This document shows, one piece after another, positions 1,911 to 54,900 of a stretch of 64,000 nt of DNA (position 1 is the first letter of the stretch; every line of letters starts with the position of its first letter). Origin of the DNA: Halichondria panicea (lineage: Eukaryota; Porifera; Demospongiae; Suberitida; Halichondriidae); contig NC_087389.1 in assembly GCF_963675165.1 (NCBI RefSeq), positions 4,028,830-4,092,829 of the forward strand, written 5' to 3'. The notes beneath the pieces are model-generated. The model worked only from the letters and a program-made list of their open reading frames with translations. It was not told the DNA's origin and did no database searches. A program made the translations under genes and the position numbers.

Positions 1911-2613
1911 ATGGGGATCACAGTGGAGTTGTGGAGAGCTCGCATTGGGCAGTTCAGTGGTGGGAGGGGATCACAACCACACAGTAAAGCTCCCTCGACA
2001 AAATAGCCTCTACACTTCAGTGATACAGTGGGTACTACTGCAAAAGTTGTTCAAGGAGGCTTGCTTTTATTGTTAATTCTCAAGTTTCTGAGTTCTCACG
2101 ACAAATCACTTTTGCTAAAACGCACAAGAAATGCTGGTCTCCTGATGATTGCCATTGTTGGGTTGGTCCACTCTCTTGCCCATCTCTTGCTGCTAGCTGG
2201 AGACATTGAGAGCAATCCTGGGCCACAAATGGGTAATTAAGTTGTATGATTTATATTGTGAAGGTGGATGTTTCTAAATTTTCCATAATATTGTTACAGA
2301 TGAAGTTCTGACCCTCCATGAGCATCTAGAGGACGCTTGCAGCAAGCTGTTCAAGGCTCGTACAGAATGGTTCAATATTGGGCTAATTCTAGGTGTCAAT
2401 GGCAAGACTCTTACTGCTATCCGCCAGGAGCATTCTAGTAACCATGGTGACTGTCTCCGAGATATGTTGGCTCATCGTATCAAAACAATGGATTCACTCA
2501 CTTGGGGAGATCTGTGCAAGAGTCTTAGACATGTCACAGTAGGACCAAGGGCGTATACAGAGAAGAGGGCATGCAACTCGCCCAATTCTCAGAATCATCC
2601 GACTTCGTATTGA
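1911..2613 (+). pseudogene. 2A-leader plus death-domain gene with in-frame UAG
   Basis: The ATG at 1911 opens MGITVELWRARIGQF, homologous to the leader of the intact 2A-NLR at 29117 (WRARIG shared). The frame is interrupted by TAG at 2004-2006. The same frame then continues through two hydrophobic stretches to LLLLAGDIESNPGP, a canonical 2A motif (D-I-E-x-N-P-G-P). Exon 1 ends at 2232 in phase 1, as in the 29-kb gene. Exon 2 (2300 onward) encodes one death-like domain (LEDACSKLFKARTEWFNIGL). It reads to TGA at 2611-2613, or could splice at the GT at 2539. No NACHT follows; a transposon lies about 360 bases downstream. It is either a truncated pseudogene or a short 2A-Death protein using a downstream start or readthrough. 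An ATG at 2145 would leave only the second hydrophobic segment and the 2A. Confidence 0.65.
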
Positions 2614-3192: not shown

Positions 3193-5725
3193 ATGGCTAC
3201 TTCAAGGAAACGGGTGCGCTACACAATGGACGTTCACTTCGTTGATGAAGACATATGATGAAGAGGAGAAGCAAGCGTTTCTTGGTCGCCTAAAGCACGT
3301 CCGTGAGCTGCTAAAGCCTCCTGGAAGCCCTCTGCTTGACAACTTTAGCCTGTTGAGCACACTCTGTGCTTCTGTTGAAGGTGACCCAGATCACTCACAC
3401 CCTCCCCCTACCCCTGTTACTGCAATCAGGAGCTTTATGAGCAACAATGGTAAGCAATACAAGCATCATAAGTAAATGCTCTATGAAGCATCATGCAGGT
3501 ATGTACAAAAACGATACTTCCGATGGGCAACAACTCTTTGCCACGGAGTATCATTGTTTCACTGACCTAGTGAAAGGGCTTGCCACGCCCTGTCCGTGTG
3601 GGGTAACTAGAAGTCCCTGGGAAGTCCAGTCAATAGTACAGGTGTGTGTTGAAAGTTGACTGTCAGTTTCATAAATTACACGTGTGTTTTTTTGTAGAAA
3701 GGACATGTGGTACGAGCTCTTTTTTGCTGCCGACGCTGTAAGGTGCAGAAGAGAAAGTGGTCTAGCTCCCGTGTATTTGGAGGACATTATTTGGTGAACC
3801 AGAAGTAAGCTTATGGATACCACACCATAGTTATGTGTTTACTGCATCTCTGGTATATTTTATATAGGGTTGTTCATGGGTTTACTTGTGCTGGAATTCT
3901 ACCCTCCCAATACACCCACTTTAGTCAGTTCTGTGGTTTAGGGACTGTTGGTCAAAGTTACATCCGACAAGGTTAGCTCACTCCAACTATACCCAGAGTG
4001 TAAGTAAATTCATGTTTCCTCAGTGTACGGAAAGCTAGGTTACCGTGACATTGTACAAAGGGCAGCAAACGTGAGCATGATGTCGGCTGTTTTTGATGTG
4101 AAGGCCCTTCCTGAGTATACCACCAACAAAGGAGAGGTGTGTTTGTGTACCGTATTACTAGTAATAAATAATTTTATTATTGTTTTAAACTTAGTGGGTA
4201 ATCACTGATGCCCGGCACGACTCAACAGCCAACGCATACCACACAACTGTGCCTTGCCTGTCTGGAAGGTGGGAAGTTAGTGTGTCTCTGTCGGTTTTGT
4301 ATTTATTTTGTATATTTTCAGCAACAAGAAGATACTCGGCATATCAACTCTCTCTCGGGCCGAACACTCCACTGCACAGACCAGAGAACTTGCGTGTACC
4401 AAGCTTGTTATCCCTCAAGTGCAAAGCAGAGGTTTATCCCCATAATAAATGAATGCACATAATAATTATTGCCAAATCTAGGTATTGAAGTCATCGAGGT
4501 AGCTCATGATATGCAGGCGCAGGTCGCAAAGTACGTGTCAGACAAGTTGGGACTCATCAATTCCTACGACACTTGGCATGGTAAGAAAATGTGTGGTACA
4601 TGTATGTTGTATCATTTTCACACACATTTTAGGAACGAAGAATGTGTCGAAGGAAATAAAGAAAGTAACACAGGGCCTAGTTCGTGATAGAGGGAAGGTT
4701 TGGTTTCCTGAATTATCAGATAAACGTAAGAATCTACTAAGTAAACTTTCATGTACACTAGTAAGGTGTGCATTAATAGGAAGAAGTATAAAGATCCACC
4801 TGTATTGGGCAATGAAAAATTGCGGAGGGTCTGCTGAGAAACTGAAGGAGATAATAATGAATATCCCTAATCACTACCAGGTTAGTTAATTATTGTGGCG
4901 TGTTTATTAGTAATACATTGATGTTTTTGTAGAGAATCCACACAAATTGCCACCCTTCCTCTACTTGCCACATGGACGACTACGAACCCAGTAGGGACAA
5001 GCTTGTTAGCAGAAAGGCTATAGAAGCTCTCATAAAGCAGCTCCATACGACGTACATTTACCGCTATGCTAAAGATTTCTGTTCGGTAAGGATTAAACAT
5101 GTGTTGTTTGTATAACATACCCGTATATTGTATAGTGTCGTGATACCTACTGGGTTGAGTCGTTCAACCATCAACTCCTCACCTACCTGCCCAAGTGCAT
5201 TCACTTTTCGACTGAGACGTTCATAATGCGAATGAATTTGGCTGTCTTGGATTGGGTACGTACATGGAGTATTATTATGTGTACACTATGTGGGGGGAGA
5301 GCTTCTCGTACACTAATTTGTAGTAGTATTTAGAGCTTACATTTACTTTAAATTTCAGTCTATACTATCGATAATTGCTTTATTCTAGAATGAGAACGTC
5401 AATCGCTCTTACACCAGTATGAGCAAAGTGAGTGACCTTCGACGACCAGATCGCCGCACAGCAATGAAAGCCTTAGTGAAGAAAGGTTTTAAATTTGTTG
5501 CTTTGCTATGGGCAATGTATGTTGAACAAAACAAAGCTGATATGAGGTATGATTACAATGTGTACGTACATGTAAGGGCATTTGACATGTAACTTTCGTA
5601 GAGAATTGATCGAAGAAGATGACGTAGTAGAGGAGCAGAATGATGACGTGACCTTAGAAGACGGAGTGATGCCACCAGAATATTCTGACGAGTCAGAGGC
5701 TGAGGACGATGACATGGACGACTAA
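3193..5725 (+). CDS. Kolobok-like DDE transposase (14 exons)
   Basis: Fourteen exons join in frame: 3193-3449, 3499-3641, 3698-3804, 3868-3971, 4024-4136, 4195-4268, 4322-4431, 4482-4580, 4633-4725, 4762-4880, 4933-5085, 5136-5255, 5389-5546 and 5602-5725. From the ATG at 3245 this gives 573 residues. The motif order fits Kolobok transposases: a CxC/CxxC zinc-like region (PCPCG, CCRRC), first catalytic Asp in VITDARHDSTANAYHT, second Asp in IEVIEVAHDMQ followed by NSYDTWHGTKNV, then HLYWAMKNCGG, the HYQRIHTNCHP segment, and the catalytic Glu in TYWVESFNHQLL before RMNLAVLDWN. The C terminus is an acidic tail. The upstream ATG at 3193 opens a homologous-looking 21-codon frame that breaks at TGA 3256, so the true N terminus may be frameshifted by loss of two bases in an ATAT run. 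The catalytic residues are present. Confidence 0.8.
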
Positions 5726-29116: not shown

Positions 29117-32100
29117 ATGGATGACCTTCAAACGTGGAGGGCCAGGATTGGGCTCTACTGTGCTAGAATGCACAGAACTCACCGTGGCCCAAACAAGAGC
29201 TGTGGCCTGGACACTTACTCGACCCACGTGCACGGTAGAAAATCCCTCAGTGATGGTGCTAGCGGGGGTGCTTTGTTAGCAATGAGTCTGCTCAGTATTG
29301 CAATAGCAATGTTCTCACTGTTAACTGTGGCAGGAGATATTGAGCTGAACCCTGGCCCTGAGAAGGATACTAATCCACTTGAAGGTGCGACAATGATTGA
29401 TTTATTGATGTGCATGCATGGGGTGCGGCTTTTTAAGATTTGCGAATTATTTAATATGCAGCTCAATTGAGTTCAGTTTCACATCTGCGTGAACTCAAAA
29501 ACAAATTGTGGGATGTAAGAGTGGAATGGTTTCGGCTTGGAGTGGAGCTTGGAATTGCGGTACCGGATCTAGATGCTATCAAAGTGAAGCGTAGAGAAGA
29601 CCCTGATAACTGCTTCACCGATATGCTCTCAGTGTGGCTAAAAAACAGTGATGCTCCAACATGGACAGCTATTCTGAGTGCATTGAGGACAACTGGTACG
29701 AATCGACGACTTGCAGACAAAATAGAAACTGAGCTCAAAGAAGGCAGTGACACAACCCAAACCGACAATGGTGAGAGTATATTCATTGCATTTTTGTACT
29801 GTGTGGGTGTCCAACTGTCCATGCATGTAACCATATTCACAACCATGCATACTTTCAGACGAAATCAGCAGCTCACAACCAGGTCCAGGTGTTCATTTCA
29901 TTTCCTCATTAAAAGAGATAGCACATCTCCCTATATGCAACTGGTATGAAGTGGGGACTGCTTTAAAATTAGATCAATACGACCTTCAGAGCATTCAACA
30001 GAAAAGCACAGGAGACATGGACGTCTGCAAAATACAAATGCTTAAAAAATGGTTTAACTCAAGCACTCAAGTGACATATGAAGATCTAGTAAAGGTTTTG
30101 TTCTCAACTGGCTATGAAAATATGGAGGTTGCTAAAGAAGTTTGCAAGAATCAAGGTACGTGTTGATCATAATTATACCGTATAGCGCGAAATTTTCAAG
30201 GGGCTTAATTTTTGCTGATTTCATGGGTTAGCAATCCTACACGAAAATTAAGTCCACGAAATCAGTTAGAATTATCTGCTATAACGAGCAAAGATTAAAG
30301 GGGTGGCTTCTGGGTAAGCAGTCATTCCACGAACATTGTTCAACGAAATACTTTTAGAGGCCATTCCACGAAATATAAGTGCCTCGAAAATGTCACGCTA
30401 TACAGTAATTAACTGCTCTCATGGGCATGATAATTATATTACTATATGCACTATATACTTGCATGTATGCATGTCATACAGCATGCATGATCATCATTCC
30501 AGTTACCTGTAACCAGTAAGTTTTGCGCTATGTCCACGCATATTTGTGGTCATGCATAAATTATTGCAATGGACTATAGGTATTTCTGCGTCAACAATCA
30601 AAGTGCCTCAACCACTATGTGTGAAGCAATATGTCGAATCTTTAAAAGCTGAGTATTTATGTATGCCTATTCTGAAAAAAGACCCCTGGCCCCCACCTCC
30701 ATGTGAGAAATACTGTGACCTAATTTGGGCAAATTTTACAAATGAAGGAATGAAATTTGGAGATAACATTGCTAAAATGTTCAAAGTAAATACTGGAAAA
30801 TTACGATTTTTAGTCAATGGAATGCCTGGTGTAGGCAAAACTACTTTTTGTAAGCAAATTGCAAAAGAATGGGCAAACGGTGAGATTCTACAAAATTATG
30901 ATATAGTGCTGCTTGTTCAACTTAGAGATCCTCAAAATTCAGGAGCTAAAGCGTATGGAGATTTTTTTTATCACGATGAAGAGCGTATCAAAGAAGAAGT
31001 AGTAAAGCACATAGGTAGACGTTCGGGGAATGGTGTTCTATTTATTTTCGATGGATTTGATGAGCTCAGCAAAAGAGATAGGAACAAGGGATCATTGTTC
31101 TTAGATATCTTTAATGGTAAGAAATTAAAAGAAAGTTCTGTAGTGATTGCTTCACGTCCATATGCATCACAAAACTTGGAATTTTCCAAATATATTGAAT
31201 TGATTGGCTTCGATGATGACCTCATTAAATCATGCATTCAAGAATCAATTGAAGATAAAGCAGAGGCTGAACAGCTCCAAATTAGAATAATTGAAAACGA
31301 TGATCTAAAACATATGTGTACAGTTCCGAACAACCTCGCCATCGTGATATACATATACAAACAGGAGAAGGGGGTGCTGCCTAATACTTTAACCGGACTT
31401 TATTCCAATTTTATCAGCAATACACTACACAGAAATGCTCAACATTTAAAACCTAAAAAACGAGCAAAATATGTACGATCTCTTGAAGAACTGGCATTCA
31501 AAGGACTATCTGAAGACAAGTTAACATTTACAGTTGATGAGATGAGTGTAGAAGAAGGTTCAACTTTGGGTTTGATGACAGCTAGTGAAAGTTACAATAG
31601 TAGTGGGCAGAAAATTGCTTACAACTTTTTGCACCTAACAATTCAAGAATATCTAGCTGCATGTTGGATTGCTAACCTTCCAGGAGGGGAACAAGCACAG
31701 TTCGTAAGGAAAAACTATGATAATAGCCGATTCTATGTAACACTAATATTTTTGGCTGGATCTAGCACTAAATTAATAAATCCAGAGTTTAATGAAGCTC
31801 TACAATTCATTTTTGAAAAAGCATTGAATGACGTATACATTGATGTTACAAGTAAAAATAGACTTAATGACCGAGACAACAATTCGTGGCCTTTCTATAA
31901 CTCTCAAAATTTAGAAACCTTATGTTTACTAGTGTCTCTTCTACATGAAAGGGGGGACTTATCAGCTATAGACAGTAAAAATATGCTATCTGAATCACTT
32001 GATAGGGTACTACTTGTAGACTTGCAACATATACCGAGTAATTACAAACAAAATTTACTTGGAACTTTCATATCAAAGAGTGAGATAATGTGGGAAAGAT

Positions 32101-33590
32101 TAGAAGTAATATTTGACAGCACTAAAGGATATGAGCAGCTCGTTGAATTTGCAAAAGATTCGTATGGCCAAGTACGCCAATTGGGCTTGCACGATTTCTC
32201 ACTTTTAAACTGCAGCAATCTGTTAGAATGTCCAATGTTTGACAAACTGGAATATCTCAGAGTGGATTCCATTTTATACTTCAGAGAAGTTCGTCTTAAT
32301 GATCAAACTCCTAGGTGGGGTGCAGATAATAACCCAAAAGATTGCGATAAGCTCAAAAATCTCCTCAAAAATGGACAACTGAAACACCTTCTTTTACATC
32401 ATATCACACCACTCGAGGCAGATTATATTATCAAGCAATCAGTGACCCCTTATTTGGCAAAATGTATAAGCCTACAAACATTATGCTTGCATTTTGAACG
32501 AAAAATACCGAGTGAGCTTCTACTTGATCTATTTCGAGCTATTCAGTCTAACAGGTCTATTGTAACCCTCAATCTTTCAATTGGGTTTGATACCCTTGCA
32601 ATTGAAACACCAGTCAATCTGCCACAAGCGATAATCATGAATATACCACCAACATCTATCTTTATCAAAGTAAAGGAAAGGCAGAAAATAGTAAAGGCAC
32701 TACGCAAAATGATTGAGAAAAATAACTGTGTACAAAATCTGTCTATAACGCGAACCGAGTCTATTCGAGATAATGTTTTTCACTGGGCAGATGACACATC
32801 AAACTTTATGTCTGCCCTTGCATTCAAATCTACAGTAACAAAGCTTACCATTTCATGTAATCTACTTTATGTTCCTCTATTGGGAAATATACTCAAGCAA
32901 AACAAAACACTGACTTCCCTCACGCTGAATGAAGTCGACTCAATGTATAAAGGTGCACTGAAATCTTCAAGAGGGGTCTTCATTTTTCTAGCACAGGGGT
33001 TGAAACAAAATACAACTCTAAAGAGGCTGTGCCTTAATTCCTCAAAGTTTCATTTTTCTGGTCAATCTTATCCAAAGTGTGAACATTTTGTCGTTGACTA
33101 CTTAGTTTTTATGAATGGAATCGGAGAAGCAGAAATAGATTCAAACAATCCCTTTTTTCATTTACTAAAAGCTATTCGAACCCATTCATCTTTAGAAGAG
33201 TTAGTATTTGACTATTACTCAGACCTTCAACAATTAAAACTTCCGCAGTTACCTAAAGAAGTCCAACAATTTTGTTTATTCTCTGACAAAAATCAGAAAG
33301 CTTTGTTTGACCTACTTCTACACAATAAGTGCTTAAAATCACTCACTATCTCAGGATATAATTTTACTGAGGAACAACTAGGGCAAGCAGCACGAGCTCT
33401 AGTTCTCAATGGCCGTCGAACACATTTGTATATGATGCTAACAGAGAATTTAAGTAAAGATGATACTAAAATGGACGACTTAGTTATCCAAGATGATGGT
33501 AGTGAGATTCCACATTCGGATGCAATACGAGCTCTAGCTATGCTCGATCGAACCAAAGCAAGTATTGATTATGATCCCCAGTTACTAAAG
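29117..33590 (+). CDS. 2A-leader NLR: 2A-Death-Death-NACHT-LRR (3' end in gap)
   Basis: Exons 29117-29384, 29462-29770, 29859-30155 and 30580 into the gap are in frame, about 1295 residues to the gap. Exon 1 starts MDDLQTWRARIG, has a hydrophobic stretch (residues 51-71) and ends in LLTVAGDIELNPGP, a canonical 2A motif with the predicted ribosome-skipping point between residues 80 and 81. Exons 2 and 3 each encode a death-like domain (LKNKLWDVRVEWFRLGVELG; ICNWYEVGTALKLDQYDLQS). Exon 4 has the NACHT: Walker A GMPGVGKTT near residue 372, Walker B LFIFDGFDEL, sensor-like VIASRPYASQN, then FLHLTIQEYLAA, and C-terminal leucine-rich repeats. In sea urchin, 2A leaders on NLR-type proteins act as alternative signal sequences (cytosolic if skipping occurs, secretory if not); the same is inferred here. 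Intron 3 contains a MITE. Confidence 0.88.
29312..29362 (+). other. 2A-like ribosome-skipping motif
   Basis: The end of exon 1 encodes FSLLTVAGDIELNPGP. The D-I-E-x-N-P-G-P core is invariant in functional 2A peptides and is preceded by a hydrophobic helix that could double as a signal sequence. The exon ends ten codons later, so the leader is an exchangeable exon. Confidence 0.85.
30176..30407. repeat. MITE, TACCGTATAGCGCG family, copy 2
   Basis: The same family and size as the element at 25797-26026, with matching ends and interior. It lies in intron 3 of the 2A-NLR gene, about 20 bases after the splice donor at 30156. Confidence 0.85.
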
Positions 33591-33790
33591 NNNNNNNNNN
33601 NNNNNNNNNNNNNNNNNNNNNNNNNNNNNNNNNNNNNNNNNNNNNNNNNNNNNNNNNNNNNNNNNNNNNNNNNNNNNNNNNNNNNNNNNNNNNNNNNNNN
33701 NNNNNNNNNNNNNNNNNNNNNNNNNNNNNNNNNNNNNNNNNNNNNNNNNNNNNNNNNNNNNNNNNNNNNNNNNNNNNNNNNNNNNNNNNN
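33591..33790. other. Assembly gap (200 N)
   Basis: Two hundred unspecified bases interrupt the LRR exon of the 2A-NLR gene. The round size suggests a placeholder rather than a measured length, so the 3' end of the gene is unknown. Confidence 0.98.
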
Positions 33791-34570: not shown

Positions 34571-37500
34571 ATGGAAGCACACGTATTGAGTGAGTTTGTT
34601 GAAGGTCTTAAAGAGGCTTACAGAGAGAGGCTATTTAACATGGAGGAACAATGGCCACCAGTTAGGGGAGATAAGCTGATAAAGTTGCACTTAGTGGAGG
34701 CAGAAAAAGAAGAGGGATTTAGAGCTGGGTTGCCACAACCTGGCGCACCTAATGAAAAGGTCAAACGTACTCCAATTCTCCATGAAAACTTGTTTAAAAT
34801 CAAAGAAGGCAAGAAACCAGAGAAAAAACTTATCGTGGAAGGCAATGCTGGGATTGGTAAAACTACACTATGTACCATGCTTGCTGAAGGGTGGGCAGAG
34901 GGAAATATCCTGACACAATTCGACTGTGTCCTGTTACTTCCCCTCAGGGAACAGTTAGTTAGCTCAGCCTCCTCTCTTACTGACCTCCTGGCTCTTCATC
35001 ATCCCGACGAGATAATTTGTGAGCCTGTTGTTCGTCACTTAAAGAGAATAAGAGGAAAGGGGGTGCTCATCATTGCTGATGGATGGGACGAGCTCAGTGA
35101 AGCAAATCGTTCAAAAGCGTCTTTTCTATACAATCTTTTGTTTGGTCGTCATCTTCCTTTTATTTCTGTTCTCCTCACCTCACGACCTTCTGCTTCAGCT
35201 CCTCTTCATGATCTTCCTTCTGTGGACCGTTTGGTTGAAGTAGTCGGTTTTAATGAAGAGAATATCAAGCAGTACATAGAATCTGAGTTTGATCAATTCC
35301 CAGAGAAAGCTTCTTCTCTTATCGAGCAGCTTGAGAACAACCCAGTCCTTGAGAGTGTGTGTTCTGTACCCCTCAATTGCGCCATTGTTTGTAACTTGTG
35401 GCACACTTTAGATCGAGAGCTTCCTCGTACGCTAACTGAGCTGTACACTCAAATTGTTCTTAACATTATCCTTCGCAATATCAAAAAGAAGTTTCCTGAT
35501 TGTCCGATTGGCCTTAATAGTTTTGATGAGATTCCGAATGATCTACAAGACACCTTCTGGTTGATCTGTGAGTTTGCCTACGAGTGCTTACTACTAGATC
35601 AGCTGGTTTTTTCAGAAGCTGAATTGTCCTCTCGCTTACCTGATGTCGGTGACAAGTTGCAGTGCTTTGGTCTGTTGCAGTCTGCCCGATCACTTCTACC
35701 TGTTGGTCATGGCCTATCTTTTCACTTTGCTCACCTGACCATCCAGGAGTTCATGGCTGCTCTCCATCTTGCTACTCTCCCTAATGAGGAGAAACTGAAA
35801 GTTGTTAAGGCGAGTGCTAGGAGTGTCCGATTTAACATGGTATGGAGGTTTATGTTCGGTCTTGCTAGTAAGCTCTACCGTGAATCTGATAAGGTGATCA
35901 GTTTTAATGATAGTTTGGTGGATCAATTTCTGATGGCTAAAAATCAGGATGTTTTGGCTTTATGTCATGTGGCTTTCGAAGCTTCAGACCCTGACATTGC
36001 ACTAAGAGTTTGTAAAATGTCTGTGCGACATCTATTCCACAGAGGTCTTAGTACTCCCTTCGACTGTGTAGCTGGATTCCATGTTCTTCGTTATGCCGAA
36101 AAATGTGATAATATGGTTATCAGAATATCCTATTGTGCAATTGATGATATGTTGTTGAAGAAACTAACTGACATACTTTCCGATGCGAATGGTCATTTGC
36201 AAGTTCGAGACTTATCCCTCGTGAAGACTAAGGTGTCTGACAAAGGTGTTGCTGATTTATTCAAGAGAGCCTCAGTTGCCTTTACAGCTTTGGATACACT
36301 CCTGTTGTATAAAAATAACTTCACTGGGATAATGTCGATATTCATACACAAGACAAGTACGAGTCTCACGCAACTGGACTTATCCACCAATCCTCTTGGA
36401 GTGTCTGGTATACAGTCATTAGAGACAGCTGTACGGTCTGGTGCCCTTATCAAACTAGAAAGCCTGGGGCTATCTAACACCCTCACTGATGATGCTGACA
36501 TCAATGGGGCTCTGCTGACAACCCTCTTACAGTCTATTTCCTCACACTGTGCTCGACTGTTAGGCTTAGACCTCTCTGTTAATAATCTTGGTTTACCTGG
36601 ATTATGTTCAGTAGTGGAAAACGTTCCATTAGGATTGAATAGTATTGGTTTCTCTGGTTGCTTCCTCACCTCCGCTGACATTGTGATGCTTATCCACTTT
36701 CTCAAGTCGGCTAATGTGATATGTAAGAAGTTGAAATTGTTAAATCTCAGCTCCAATTGCATCGATGATGATGGAGTGATTGCTCTCGCTGAATGTTTAC
36801 CTGAGCGGTTTCCTAGCCTGGTTGGCTTCAATGTCAGTCCCCTGGGTGCTGTTCTTCTCTATGGAAATCCTGTGAGCGAAGAGTTGATACACATGTGCAA
36901 TGACAACTTAAAGGTACTCATTCTATATATAATTTGTCACACTTAAGTTCATTATTAAAATACAGGTCATTGAGGAAACTGCTGTGCTGAATAAGTTTAT
37001 TCCTCAAGAATATGAAGAGGTACATGTAAGTCTCTTTATAAAAGCATGCATATGAGCTGGGCATAATTATAATTTTTGATCTATTAGACGACCGATGTTT
37101 GGGATGTACTACTGTCAGAGATGATTTGCACTATTTGTGATGTAAGTGTGCCATATCTTGTGTAACTGTGCATGTCTGTATAATTATAGCACATTTTGAA
37201 TTGATTAATGTAAATCTCATTCGCTGAGGATTCTGAATCCCACTCCATGCAGGACGACAGATTGGCCAGTCATGTTACAATATTCTTTCCAGACCCATTT
37301 TTCCATAACCCGAATTCATCTAGTGATGAGCCTACCTATTCTACTACGGAGCTGCAGGGTGAGGAAGGTGAAGCAATAATTTGATAAAAGGCTAAGCTAT
37401 ATAGTTATCTGAATCTCTCTTGCAGGGACATACACTCATACTGACTCCGATGTATCAGTTGCTGACTCTAGTAGTGATGAAGTAGCTACACCAACACTCC

Positions 37501-45952: not shown

Positions 45953-46645
45953 AGGTTGAAATTTTTAAAGTAGCTAGAGAGTCACAGAGAGCTTACCTTC
46001 AGTTTCCAATGACTGCAAAACCATACAATAACATGTACATTGTCAAAGTTATGTATACTGGTCTGGCCACGCCCATCTAAGTCAGAGATTGTATCAATAT
46101 CAACATAAAAAGTCATTCCATTAGTCCATTCCAGTGTCCACCTCCACCGTTACATTCCACTGAGTCAAGATATACCCTTATTTGGAGGTACATTAAACCT
46201 CTGTTACAGTAGTAAGCACAAATATTTACTGCCTCTGATCATCTGATCGCCTAGTTAACCAAAGGTGTATAACGTGCAGACTTAAGTCTGTGCAAGTGGT
46301 CACAAGAATGTCTAAATTATTGGGCAACACCACATTCTAATTAGACGTTTGGAGAGTTCTCACATAATTTACTTTACTGTTTGTAGCTATGTTATAGATA
46401 TACATGAACAAAGTCTATTTACAGAAATCAAACGATGCTTTTTTTCTGCTCTCTGCTAGGTTATTGTCATCTCTAAGTACTCTACGGCACACGGTATTGG
46501 TTGTCATTATCAATTTTCGTCATGGTGGCGTGAACTGGTATTGTCAAGTCACTGTTGTGTTCAGTTCATTCCCTCCTTTTATGCGAATAGTTTGGACGCT
46601 AAACATTTCACTGGGACAATAATTATTGTTCATACAGTGGTCGGT

Positions 46646-49600
46646 ATGGAAGCACAAGAAGCCTTGAGTGAGTTTGTTGAAGGTCTTAAAGAGGCTTACA
46701 GTGAAAGGCAATTCATCACGGAGGAACAATGGCCACCAGTTAGAGGATACAAGCTGATTAACTTGCAGTTAGTGGAAGCTGAAAAAGAAGAGGGATTTAG
46801 AGCTGGTTTGCCACAACATGGTATCCCTGATGATATGGTCAAGCGTACTCCAATTATCCATGGCAACCTATTCCATGTCGAAAAAGGCAAGAAACTAGTG
46901 AGGAAGCTCATCGTTGAGGGTAATGCTGGGATCGGTAAAACCACACTGTGTACCATGCTTGCTGAAGGGTGGGCAGGAGGCAACATCCTGACACAATTTG
47001 ACTGTGTTTTGTTACTTCCACTAAGAGATCCCTTAGTTAGCTCAGCCTCCTCTCTTACTGGCCTCCTGGCTCTTCACCATCCCGACGAGATAATTTGTGA
47101 GCCTGTTGTTCGGCACTTAAAGAGGACAAGAGGAAAGGAGATGCTCATCATTGCTGATGGATGGGACGAGCTCAGTGAAACAAACCGTTCAAAAGTATCT
47201 TTTCTATATAATCTTTTGTTTGGCCGTCTTCTTCCTTCTGCTTCCGTCCTCCTCACCTCACGACCTTCTGCTTCAGCTCCTCTTCATGATCTTCCTTCTG
47301 TGGATCGTTTGGTTGAAGTAGTCGGTTTTAATGAGGAAAATATCAAGCAGTACATAGAATCAGAGTTTGATCAATTCCCAGAGAAAGCTACTTCTCTTAT
47401 CGAGCAGCTTAATAACAACCCAGTCCTTGAGAGTGTGTGTTCTGTGCCCCTCAATTGCGCCATTGTTTGTAACTTGTGGCACACTTTAGACCAAGAGCTT
47501 CCTCGTACGCTAACTGAGCTGTACACTCAAATTGTTCTTAACATTATCCTTCGCAATATCAAAAAGAAGTTTCCTGATTGTCCGATTGGCCTTAATGGAT
47601 TTGATGATATTCCCAATGATCTACAAGACACGTTTTGGTTAATCTGTGAGTTTGCGTACGAGTGTTTATTACTAGATCAGCTGGTTTTTTCGGAAACTGA
47701 ATTATCGTCTCGCTTACCCGAAAGTGGTGACAAGTTGCATTGCTTCGGTCTATTGCAGTCTGCTCGATCGCTTCTACCTGTTGGTCATGGCTTGTCTTTT
47801 CACTTTGCTCACTCGACCATCCAGGAATTCTTGGCTGCCCTCCATCTTGCTACTCTACCCAACGAAGAAAAAATGAAGGTAGTTGAAGCTCATGATGACA
47901 GTGACCGGTTCGACATTGTATGGAGATTTATGTTTGGTCTTGCTAGTAAGTACCACGATAGTTGTAGTAATCAGGTAATTGGTTTGGATGATGATTTGAT
48001 GGATAAATATATGGCGTTTAAATATGGTGATTTAGCTTCAGTATGTCATGCGGCGTTCGAAGCTTCAGACCAAAGTCTTGCGAAAAAAATTTGTAATGTT
48101 TTTGGGCAAAATCTATTATACGGTGATTTCAAAACTCCTTTTGACTGTGTAGCTAGGTTCTATGTTCTTCGTTATGCTGTGAAATGTGATAATATGGTTA
48201 TAAGAATATCCTCTTGTACAATTGGTGATAAGCTGTTGAAGGAACTAACTGACATACTTTCAAATGCGAATGGTAATTTGCAAGTACGCGACTTACTTCT
48301 TGCGCAAACCAAATTATCTGACAAAGGTGTTGCTGATTTATTCAAGAGAGCCTCAGCTGCCTTTATAGCTTTAGATGAACTCTCTTTAATTTCCAACAAT
48401 TTCACTGATATCATGTCTTCATTCGTTTCTTGTACGAGCCTCACACAATTGTACTTATCTGAAAATCCTCTTGGAGTATTTGGCATTCAGTCACTGGAGA
48501 CAGCTGTACGAGCAGGCGTTCTTGTTCGTCTGGCAACCCTGCACTTATCCAACACCCTCACCGGAGATGCTGACGTCAATGGAGCACTTCTGACCACCCT
48601 TTTTCAGTCCATTGCCTCTCACTGTGCTAACCTTGAAATCTTAAGCCTTTCTGGTAATAATCTTGGTTTACCTGGATTATGTTCAGTTGTGGAGAATATT
48701 CCATTACGATTGAATCACATCGATCTAAAAAGTACTCATCTCACGAATTCATTTCACTCAGTGTCTCAATACACAGTCACCAGTGAGATACTAAATCTCT
48801 ACCAAAACAGCGTATACTGTTTAAGAAGTATGGACTTGACTGGCTCCAATTTCAGTGGAAGTGCAGGAACTCTCTTACTGGAAAAGTCTCTTCAAGCACT
48901 TCAATCACTTGAAGAACTTAATTGCTCTGACTGTTCTATCACCTCTGTCGACATCGCAATGCTTATCCATCTTCTCAAGTCTGCTAATGTGAAATGTAAG
49001 AATTTAAAATGGTGGAATCTTGGCGATAATAACATTGATGACGAGGGAGTAATCGCTCTTACTAGGTGTTTACCTGAGTTGTTTATTCGTTTGGAAGGCT
49101 TCAGTACTAGTGTTGTATATGGTCTCACAAATGCCGTTTTCCTCATTGGTAATCCTGTGGGTGAGGAGTTGATACTCATGTGCAACGAACACTTAAAGGT
49201 ACTCACTCACTCTCTATATTTACAGTTACGTTGCATTATTTATAATTTGTGTAGGTCTTTGAAGAATCGCAGAAAATTGCACGGCTGAATGAGTGGGAGA
49301 GAACGTATTTACCTCCACAAAATGAAATGGTATATATAAAGTGATTTTATATCATGTAATTTGAAAATTGTATGGTTTCAATCTAGACTACCCATGTTTT
49401 CTGCCAGCTTTGGGATACACTTCTGTTAAAGATGATTGACATGGCTGGAGCGGTGAGTACACCATAATTATCGTGGTTGTAATTGAATGTCATGCTTTTT
49501 ATTGTAGATCTCTCCAGCTTTTTCCGGTGATGATGATAGCATATTTTTATGGCAATCAACGGACGATGCACTGAACTCTCCCAATGATGCTGCCAATAAC

Positions 49601-50381: not shown

Positions 50382-51902
50382 TTGTAATAATGTGATTTTG
50401 TTCCTTAAAGTATATAGACTGCGTGTTGGATTTTGTTCCTTTATTAAACATGTAGATTTAGTTCTATATACTAGTTTTGGTGCTCTCCCCAATCCTATAG
50501 CCTTCTCCTCCGTTGATTTAGGGTGAATAATAAAATAGTGTTGCTGTGCTCTATAATTATGTAGCAAGAGTTCTAATTATAAAATTTATGCATTATGCAT
50601 TACACCCCATCATGGAGTTTCCTGTGAGTGGTCACAAGAATGTTGTCTGCACTAGACCACATTTTAAGAAGTGCAAACCACATGCAGAGCACACATCTTG
50701 AATAAATCTTGAACAAGAACCAGGTCTTGCATTGAAATCTTCTATTGTAACAGTTGAAATTGTAAGTTAATTGGTGGGATATCATAGACTAGATCTAGTG
50801 AGAATTTGTTAATTTGCATGCATGCATGCATGTATATACATGCATTTAAGAGTAGGGATAGAGTGATATGCAGATAGAGTAGAATATAATTTGTGTACGT
50901 TAATTTTAAGTTTACACCATTGTGTAGATGAATAATTGATTCATGAATAACTATGTTTCGGTAATCGCTTAGCGGTTCCTTAGATTTCAATGTAGCTATG
51001 GTGCCTGTGGTAGATCTTTGTGCTCTCTTGCAACTAACCTGAGTTAATTAACCCCCTAGACTAAGTGAAAACCACTAGGCTTGATGACGAATTTCAAGCC
51101 GGGATCCAACTGGGATTGCTGATCTAGTACCATCCTTGATTAGAGAAAATGACTGTGGGATCACTGCTGTTTTAGCTCCTTGAAAATATGCACTTTTTAT
51201 GCACAAATCCTTGTCTAAATGTTTGCTGTTAAACGTGGATTGTTAATTACTGAGGTACATGTGATGCGTGTCCTATCTCCTCTGGAATAGCACACACTGT
51301 TTTGTACTTGATATATTTGTGGCTAGTTTTACTATAATTATGCATGGAGCATTCACAGTGACTTAATTGTACTTACTGGGTGATGTCAATGTTATTACCC
51401 TATGCCAGGAAGTGGTAAGTGTATCACCCAGACCACTTCCTATATGATATTGATGGCCTTTTATACATGTACCTGAGCTCAGAGGAGGTACGACACGCGT
51501 GCCTCGATTAGGCTAATAATTGCCTCTGCAATAACGTTGAGCGTGGGCGGATAATCGAGGCGTGGTTACACCCACGCTCAATGTTATTGCAGAGGCAATT
51601 AGCCTAATCGAGGCACGCATGTTATACCTCCTCTGACCTGTCGCTGATGCATGCACTATAGCAGTAAGCATGATCCTTTGATCGAGGTGTGTTAACTCAT
51701 ACAATGAAAAATCAATCAATATGATCATTTCCCGCTAACAAAAGCAATCAAATGATCTGTTCCCTGTAGGTTATCGTACATCTCTATACGGCCAGCTAGC
51801 AAAGTGGAAATCGGTCTGTTATTATTGCAAGTAACGTATCGAGTGAACTTTTTGTTTGTTATACTGGACCAAATGCTCTACTGAAATTAGCTATAGTCTG
51901 GT
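50382..51902. other. Spacer between NLR 2 and NLR 3
   Basis: No gene is supported. It contains GCATGCATGCATGCATG near 50818 and the fold-back at 51479-51636. The rest is AT-rich spacer that should include the NLR 2 3' end and the NLR 3 promoter. Confidence 0.45.
51479..51636. repeat. 158-base fold-back element
   Basis: TCAGAGGAGGTA at the left is matched by its complement at the right. GTGCCTCGATTAGGCTAAT and TTGCCTCTGCAATAAC pair with the opposite arm over about 70 bases with few mismatches. Confidence 0.85.
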
Positions 51903-54900
51903 ATGGAAGCACAAGAAACACTGAGCGAGTTTGTTGAAGGTTTACAGGAAGCTTACAGAGAGAGGCAATTAAACACGGAGGAACAATGGCCACCTGTTAG
52001 GGGAGACAAGTTGATTAACTTGCAGTTAGTAGAGGCTGTAAAAGAAGAGGGATTTAGAGCTGGGTTGCCACAACCTGGCGCACCTAATGAAAAGGTCAAA
52101 CGTACTCCAATTCTCCATGAAAACTTGTTTAAAATCAAAGAAGGCAAGAAACCAGAGAAAAAACTTATCGTGGAAGGCAATGCTGGGATTGGTAAAACTA
52201 CACTATGTACCATGCTTGCTGAAGGGTGGGCCGAGGGCAAAATCCTGACACAATTCGACTGTCTCCTGTTGCTTCCACTAAGAGATCAGTTAGTCAGCTC
52301 AGCTTCTTCTCTTCCTGACCTCCTGGCCCTTCATCACCCCGATGAAATTATTTGTGAGTCTGTTGCTCGACAGCTAAAGAGGACAAGAGGGAAAAGGGTG
52401 CTTATCATAGCTGATGGCTGGGACGAGCTCAGTAAAACAAACCGTTCAAACGTATCTTTTCTATATAATCTTTTGTTTGGCCGTCTTCTTCCTTCTGCTT
52501 CCATCCTTCTCACCTCACGACCTTCTGCTTCAGCTCCTCTTCATGATCTTCCTTCTGTGGACCGTTTGGTTGAAGTAGTCGGTTTTAATGAGGAAAATAT
52601 CAAGCAGTACATAAAATCAGAGTTTGATCAATTCCCAGAGAAAGCTACTTCTCTTATCGAGCAGCTTGAGAACAACCCAGTCATTGAGAGTGTGTGTTCT
52701 GTGCCCCTCAATTGCGCCATTGTTTGCAATTTGTGGCACACTTTAGATCGAGAACTTCCTCGTACACTAACTGAGCTGTACACTCAACTTGTTCTTAACA
52801 TTGTCCTTCGCAATATCAAAAAGAAGTTTCCTGATTGTCCGATTGGCCTTAATAGTTTTGATGATATTCCGAATGATCTACAAGACACGTTCTGGTTAAT
52901 CTGTGAGTTTGCCTACGAGTGCTTATTACTAGATCAGCTGGTTTTCTCAGAAGCTGAATTGTCCGCTCGCTTACCCGAAGTTGGTGACAAAATGCAGTGC
53001 TTTGGTCTGTTGCAGTCTGCACGATCGCTTCTACCTGTTGGTCATGGTTTGTCTTTTCACTTTGCTCACTTGACCATCCAAGAGTTCTTGGCTGCTCTCC
53101 ATCTTGCTACTCTACCCAATGAAAAGAAACTGAAAGTTTTTGAGGCTAATGCTGTCAGTGGCCGGTTCGATATGGCTTGGAGATTTATGTTTGGTCTTGC
53201 TAGTAAACACCATTGTAGTTGTAGTGATAAGGTAATCAGTTTGGAAAAAATCTTAATGGATCAATTTATAGTGGCTAAAGAGCGTGATGATTTGGCTTTA
53301 TGTCATGCAGCTTTCGAAGCTTCAGACTCTGAATTTGCAAAAAAAGTTTGTTTTTTGCACGTAAAAAATCTTTTATTTAGTAATTTGGACAGTCCCTTTG
53401 ACTATATAGCTAAGTTCTATGTTCTTCGTCATGCTGCAAAATGTGATAATATGGTTATTAGAATAGCTGATTGTGCAATTAATGATAAGTTGTTGAAGGA
53501 ATTAACTGACATACTTTCGAATGCGAATGGTACATTGCAAGTTAGAGATTTATCCTTTGAGCAGACTAAGTTGTCTGACAAAGGTATTGCTGATTTATTT
53601 CAGAGAGCCTCAGCTGCCTTTACATCTTTAGGCTTACTTTGGATGAACGTAAACAACTTCACTGACATAATGTCGGCATATATTCACATATCTTGTACGA
53701 GTCTCACGCAACTGGATTTATCTACCAATCCTCTAGGAGTGTTCGGCATACAGTCACTGGAGACAGCTGTACGGGCAGGCGTTCTTGTTAACCTTGTGTC
53801 ACTGTATTTGTCCGACACCCTCACTGGCGATGTTGATATCAATGGAGCTCTATTGACCACTCTCCTACAGTCTATTTCCTCACACTGTGTTGGACTGGAA
53901 TCTTTAGACTTATCTGATAACAATCTTGGTATACCTGGATTATGTTCAGTTGTTGAGAACATTTCGTTAGTGTTGGATGAGATCGTATTAAGAGCTACCT
54001 ATCAGAGTACCTCTGAGTCTCAACACATAGTATCTTATGAGATGTCGAATTTTCCCTCAAACAATTTAAAAATTATTGAATTTACAAGCTCCAATTTCAG
54101 TGGAGCTGTGGGAACTCTTTTTCTGGCAAAATGTCTTCAAGCATTTCCATTACTGCAACGTTTAACTTGCTCTGACTGTTCTCTTACCTCGGCTGACATT
54201 GTAATGCTTATCCACAATCTCGAGTCTGCTAACGTGATATGTAAGAATTTATATTTGGTGGATCTCAGCAACAACTGCATTAATGATGAGGGAGCGATAG
54301 CTCTCATTGAGTGTATACCAGAGCGATTTCCAAGCTTGAAGCGCTCCAGTACTAGTGTTGTTCATGGTCTCGTGTGTGCCGTTCTTCTCCGTAGAAATCC
54401 TGTGAATAAAGAGTTATTATTCATGTACAACGAAAAATGGAAGGTATATACTCCATATACATATGTATAATTATAGTTCACAATTATATTTAAAATGAAG
54501 GTCATTGAGGAATCACGGAAAATCACAGTGCTAAATGAATGGGAGAGAACATATTTACCCCCACAAAATGAAGAGGTATAAGTGCATGATGTTTTTATAT
54601 AATGCTTGAGTATAATTATGCATACTATAATTATATCATTTCAATCTAGATGACCCGTCTTTTCTATAAGCTTTGGGATGTGCTTCTGTCAGAGATGATT
54701 CGCACGGCTAATCTAGTTATCGTGAGTGTATACCACATGATTATATATATATATATAGTATACATTGCTTTATCACGTCACAATATCTTATAATGTAGAT
54801 TGCTCCAGCTTTTTCTAAGAATGATGATATGCTTTTTTGGCCATCCACTGACAAGCCTGGAGAATACCATCCAACAGACGATGCACTGGACACTCTTAGC

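Follow-up and report, generated by a model that had tools for sequence, protein, structure and literature searches.

Exon 1 of a Death-Death-NACHT gene of Halichondria panicea probably works as a StopGo/2A leader, which would yield a small hydrophobic-tailed peptide and a cytosolic NLR that starts with proline. The gene lies in the 64,000-nucleotide stretch of DNA that was analyzed (the window), and we infer the skipping activity from what was observed of the leader, namely its sequence, its conservation among paralogues and the constraint on it. Leaders with a canonical 2A core abound in some of this genome's NLR clades, while near most of the other clades none was found.

The leader exon and the gene behind it

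The leader begins at the first ATG in the open frame of exon 1 and comprises 81 residues that close with GDIELNPGP, followed by a phase-1 donor (Table 1). From the ATG at 29117 the frame reads MDDLQTWRARIGLY...SLLSIAIAMFSLLTVAGDIELNPGP|EKDTNPLE, and the complete translation to the phase-1 end at 29384 is MDDLQTWRARIGLYCARMHRTHRGPNKSCGLDTYSTHVHGRKSLSDGASGGALLAMSLLSIAIAMFSLLTVAGDIELNPGPEKDTNPLE; the donor, AAG|GTGCGA, directly follows and is weak. The D(V/I)ExNPGP core of StopGo/2A peptides is present as DIELNPGP (29336-29359), and the hexapeptide ahead of it, LLTVAG, resembles by eye the L-rich (A/S/C)G class with D at p12. The mean Kyte-Doolittle value of the hydrophobic block is reached by 0 of 200 shuffles, and the block stands behind an N-region of 52 residues with a net charge of +4, a position at odds with the signal-like N terminus that an initial annotation of this DNA had proposed. 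The leader has no Pfam match up to E 1. Relatives of the leader were also sought in viral contigs by tblastn, with none found (54 pattern stretches).

Table 1. Coordinates of the target gene and of a second leader exon in the window
Feature	Position	Strand	Remarks
Exon 1, coding part, putative 2A leader	29117..29384	+	89 codons + one base, phase-1 end
WRARIG head motif, residues 7-12	29135..29152	+	codon pattern, 33 genome loci
Hydrophobic block, residues 53-69	29273..29323	+	best 17-residue window, mean Kyte-Doolittle 2.44
GDIELNPGP	29333..29359	+	predicted skip between Gly (29354-29356) and Pro (29357-29359)
Exon 2, likely divergent Death domain	29477..29770	+	Pfam E 0.016, below cut-off; profile search
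Exon 3, second Death domain	29859..30155	+	Pfam Death E 8e-7
Exon 4, NACHT (about 30807-31256) and C-terminal region	30580..33591	+	Pfam NACHT E 4.8e-19
Second WRARIG-2A leader exon	1911..2232	+	in-frame stop ahead of 2A

Exons 1 to 4 are predicted to be joined in phase 1 throughout, which keeps the frame, with the joins placed by frame, splice consensus and comparison with paralogues. The gene has the NACHT and the N-terminal Death of an NLR, the latter by Pfam in exon 3 and by profile in exon 2. The exon 2 score for Pfam Death is 15.7 bits, against a cut-off of 22.6, and a profile of this exon with 11 relatives found a PIDD construct (9tuf, E 5e-4), a leucine-rich repeat and death domain protein (2of5_H, E 8e-4) and FADD (1fad, E 0.009) in the PDB, its matches spanning E 5e-4 to 0.02; the gene therefore likely carries two death domains. 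Pfam found no LRR in 1003 aa, and the C terminus of the target is lost to a 200-N gap that starts at 33592. The initial annotation thus holds for the exon itself, which is an open frame with exact coordinates, for its phase-1 end and for the 2A core directly ahead of Death-Death-NACHT, as seen from Pfam, the exon-2 profile and the in-phase joins.

Three more NACHT-LRR genes lie on the same strand of the window (34571-36943, 46460-49285 and 51897-54467), none with a 2A of its own because the window has just two canonical 2A cores. Elsewhere in the window, an ORF at 22691-23320 matches the VDE lipocalin domain (PF07137, E 7e-12), a family known from plants and algae, and there is a weak match to the fibrillar collagen C-terminal domain that falls below the cut-off (E 7e-5) and is in keeping with an animal genome.

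The nearest relatives of the target are three genes on C15 (L042, L073 and L074), which share 44-46% identity with it in the leader, 45-47% in the first Death domain, 42-43% in the second and 29-40% in the longer NACHT-exon matches. All three retain SGDVELNPGP and, as in the target, a phase-1 donor 25 bases past the NPGP. The leaders of the target and of these paralogues are separated by a pS of 0.72-0.75 and a pN of 0.38-0.39, and the 2A has therefore outlasted heavy change. Another member of the C15 group, L072, encodes Death-Death-NACHT, but the 927 bases examined ahead of it hold no canonical 2A.

2A cores and NLR genes across the genome

A search of the 131-Mb genome with the codon pattern D-[VILMF]-E-x-N-P-G-P gave 116 exact matches (two sets, of 71 and 45) and none in the reversed control, which rules out a chance origin of the core. 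Many of these sites are clustered, with 41 on C14, 12 on C5 and 11 on C2 at 7.74-7.84 Mb. Sequence context was examined at 64 of the 116, and 39 of the other 52 are on C14. A Death-exon HMM, whose seeds came from the window and 13 of these loci, matched in sense within 2.5 kb downstream at 41 of these 64 sites and in antisense at none; outside the seed loci, a sense match was found at 27 of 50. Nearly all of the 2A sites preceded by the WRARIG head have such a Death exon (26 of 28), the two others being L057, with none in 952 bases, and L074, where it lies ∼3.9 kb downstream. Apart from the retroelements, most of the 2A sites examined are leaders of Death or NACHT genes.

At 52 of the 64 sites the first GT[AG] within 30 bases of the core is in phase 1, two of which (L043 and L044) belong to long open exons and are not leaders. 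The other 12 are the retroelements, L015 (phase 2) and seven loci at which the frame reads on (L032, L034, L035, L036, L037, L041 and L046). Four of these seven (L032, L036, L037 and L041) form a class with AGDVETNPGP or AGDIETNPGP that gave no Death HMM match below 0.4. Cores were also observed within long open exons at L034 and L043 (no Pfam match), L046 (a sub-threshold bZIP match) and L044.

The association was also seen from the NACHT side. Among the best 33 C14-type NACHT exons (60-100% identity to a C14 NACHT; scores were obtained for 150 of 247 candidates), 30 are preceded by a 2A on the same strand within 6 kb, at distances of 0.96-4.4 kb, while the opposite-strand and downstream controls gave 0 of 33 each. 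In a broader set comprising the best 102 of 265 candidates, 12 NACHT exons have a 2A leader within 6 kb and 90 do not, a count that leaves out C13:4063658, the next NLR in the window, whose nearest 2A belongs to the target. The NACHT exons with a 2A upstream thus include 30 of the C14 type (29 on C14 and one on C6), three on C15, two on C1 and the target itself. The target is thus not a lone fusion, having three paralogues on C15 and dozens of other 2A-leader genes for company.

The array on C14 is a large one, extending over about 0.50-1.63 Mb with 29 of the 30 paired C14-type NACHT exons; at least 28 of its NACHT exons are 85% or more identical, and the two of its leaders that were examined (L047 and L048) carry QSGDVEANPGP. 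The cluster on C2 (7.744-7.838 Mb, L017-L025) consists of eleven 2A leaders with Q[CR]GDVESNPGP, several of them followed by Death-like exons, and in the two of its long ORFs that were scanned Pfam gave sub-threshold P-loop matches only.

Leader families and the predicted products

The WRARIG codon pattern occurs 33 times in the genome and 0 times in the reversed control, and all 33 matches were examined. In 26 of them the leader is open from ATG to a canonical 2A (74-146 residues), and in the other seven it is interrupted by frameshifts or stops (L049, L051, L052, L056, L060, L068 and the copy at window position 1911). The 2A core is kept in 26 of 26 open leaders versus 2 of 7 broken ones (L060 and the window copy; Fisher p 9e-5), a comparison for which loci were collected by WRARIG only, so that collection bias affects it less. 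The broken window copy closely resembles the open copies L063 and L064 on C10 and is followed by a Death-like exon at about 2302-2560; a multi-exon gene at about 3193-5722, possibly transposase-like, adjoins it.

The WRARIG head is common to three leader families with differing linkers: family A on C5, C6, C10 and C13, family B on C3, C4, C11 and C12 (on C3 the copy is L027, whose head is altered and which does not count among the 33), and family C, made up of the C15 leaders and the target. Between these families the Death domains behind the leaders are 28-38% identical, which, together with the phase-1 exon end at 52 of 64 sites, agrees with the earlier description of the leader as a portable exon. 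At two loci, L013 and L028, short leaders that lack WRARIG precede Death domains with 66-78% identity to those of family B, and this combination points to leader exon turnover.

The end of the hydrophobic block lies 9-12 residues ahead of the last Pro of NPGP in each of the 26 open WRARIG leaders, so that release would leave a tail of 8-11 residues past the block (11 in the target). Two non-overlapping windows above 1.6 are present in 20 of the 26, although in three of those 20 both windows are halves of one long block. The ribosome exit tunnel holds 30-40 residues, and a block that ends 8-11 residues from the release point should therefore not have emerged when skipping is decided.

We hypothesize that ribosomes translate the leader until the nascent ...SLLTVAGDIELNPG stalls the peptidyl-transferase center, and that in most rounds the leader would be released and translation would resume at Pro, the cytosolic product being Pro-Death-Death-NACHT. 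With its block still in the tunnel, the free leader would escape the usual presentation to SRP, so it would reach a membrane after release, and the geometry of a C-terminal hydrophobic block with an 11-residue tail suggests that it may be inserted in the manner of tail-anchored proteins or degraded. A co-translational signal would come only from the fusion: when skipping fails, the emerging block would serve as a signal-anchor or internal signal and, by analogy with the sea urchin SpNLR2A proteins, direct the fused NLR to the secretory route. The positive-inside rule predicts the orientation of membrane proteins from flanking charge, and the positively charged N-region and acidic tail of the target would favor N-in, C-lumen. 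Across the genome, many Death and NACHT genes appear to use this leader as a phase-1 exon module, of which one class carries the WRARIG head.

Incomplete skipping could also be the point of the arrangement, with a single mRNA producing both a cytosolic and a secreted or membrane NLR, possibly in a regulated manner. We consider such dual targeting a serious possibility, albeit somewhat less probable than its absence, as the same device has been assayed in Strongylocentrotus purpuratus (PMC4981915), a hydrophobic block of membrane-span length is present in 26 of 26 open WRARIG leaders, and if translation of the target began at its internal Met56 the leader would have 26 residues, as in the sea urchin. 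The block, however, sits behind an N-region of 46-52 residues in the C15 and target leaders and a longer one in families A and B, unlike the 26-aa sequence of SpNLR2A, and the C15 paralogues do not have Met56. Four assayed StopGo motifs, including an L-rich one (motif 6), further reached efficiencies from about 92.7% to almost 100%, which would leave little fusion (PMC12846837). By the same analogy we expect skipping here to be efficient and the fusion to be a minority product, and the translational switch for localization put forward in the initial annotation, itself an analogy, is more than these data support. A more speculative extension of the working-leader reading, and a rather doubtful one, is that the leader is a conserved membrane micropeptide, tail-anchored-like with a cytosolic WRARIG head, that acts as a membrane partner or dock for the NLR or Death protein made along with it; the 2A would then determine whether the NLR is secretory or is cytosolic and accompanied by a tail-anchored peptide.

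The leader might alternatively be nothing but context for the 2A, its L-rich stretch serving StopGo, its released peptide going to waste and the NLR beginning with Pro. L-rich upstream hexapeptides do belong to known StopGo motifs (PMC12846837), and the short leaders of L013 and L028 manage without WRARIG. Constraint within the leaders is informative here, bearing in mind that the head and 2A values are biased low by the collection of loci through patterns for those motifs and that gene conversion may occur between paralogues. For the 16 leaders of family A, pN/pS is 0.19 for the head, 0.40 for the linker, 0.54 for the hydrophobic block, 0.17 for the 2A and 0.38 overall; in family B (7 leaders) constraint is weaker, at 0.53 for the head, 0.64 for the linker and 1.1 for the block, with 0.15 for the 2A; and in family C without the target (3 leaders) the values are 0.31, 0.35 and 0.26, with the 2A unchanged. 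The less constrained linker of families A and B is what a mere context would predict, but the head persists in three families despite their differing linkers and has a low, if biased, pN/pS in family A. The block is also longer than a six-residue context and the 26 open leaders all keep at least 74 residues, so we regard this reading as unlikely.

It is quite improbable that exon 1 is a neutral first exon captured from a 2A-bearing non-LTR retrotransposon. Such elements exist in this genome: L012 (LLAGDIELNPGP) and L026 (LSGGDIEPNPGP) are PHD-endonuclease-RT retroelements by Pfam, L014 and L016 share their post-2A sequence, and like the target L012 and L026 have a hydrophobic stretch and 2A on the N-terminal side, here ahead of a PHD finger. 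Unlike the target, they continue into PHD-EN-RT with no intron past the 2A, for 1012 and 1015 codons, respectively, and no W-[RK]-x-RIG was found in the 1200 bases preceding the 2A of L012, L014, L016 or L026, whereas the leader remains open in the NLR paralogues. Capture could nonetheless be the ancient origin of the leader. Finally, the weak donor and the lack of a nearby leader at L072 would suit a mature mRNA without exon 1 and an NLR that begins in exon 2 or later, which is highly improbable given the open frame, the donor offset and phase shared with the C15 paralogues, and the loss of the canonical 2A from broken leaders only.

Comparison with known systems

A 2A leader on an NLR is a device already known in kind from the sea urchin, as the initial annotation had pointed out, and there it has been assayed. 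2A-like sequences are reported in 85 of 241 S. purpuratus NLRs and, in a later count, a 26-aa N-terminal 2A-like sequence in 14 of 87; the skipping of SpNLR2A6 was estimated at about 80% in vitro, and its P3A mutant was secreted in plant cells (Roulston 2016, PMC4981915). The target shares with SpNLR2A the D(V/I)ExNPGP core N-terminal to Death-NACHT NLRs, the preceding hydrophobic stretch and membership of a large gene family. It differs in that SpNLR2A is a short N-terminal signal, in contrast to the far longer leaders of the target and its WRARIG class, which have a C-terminal hydrophobic block, a conserved head and a phase-1 exon of their own.

The L-rich StopGo classes 2 and 6 resemble the target, by visual comparison, in their L-rich residues and in (A/S/C)G before D at p12, but they come from viral sequences and the class goes with S at p15, where the target has L (PMC12846837). 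The same source describes 2A as rare in cellular genes. Among sponges, the NLRD proteins of Dysidea avara are likewise Death-NACHT NLRs and transmembrane domains are reported in some NLRs, but no 2A leader was found in the passages compared, and the terms "ribosom" and "signal peptide" are absent from the main text (PMC12909245). Among the matches listed in our literature search there was no sponge NLR with a 2A, a weak sign of absence.

Relative to the literature compared, what is new is the other genome, the many genes, the layout of the leader and its conserved head. If the leaders are active, 2A-controlled NLR leaders extend past the sea urchin to another animal genome, and on a large scale. 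The natural variation of leader, block and 2A within this family makes it possible to ask whether 2A serves protein sorting or the making of a second product.
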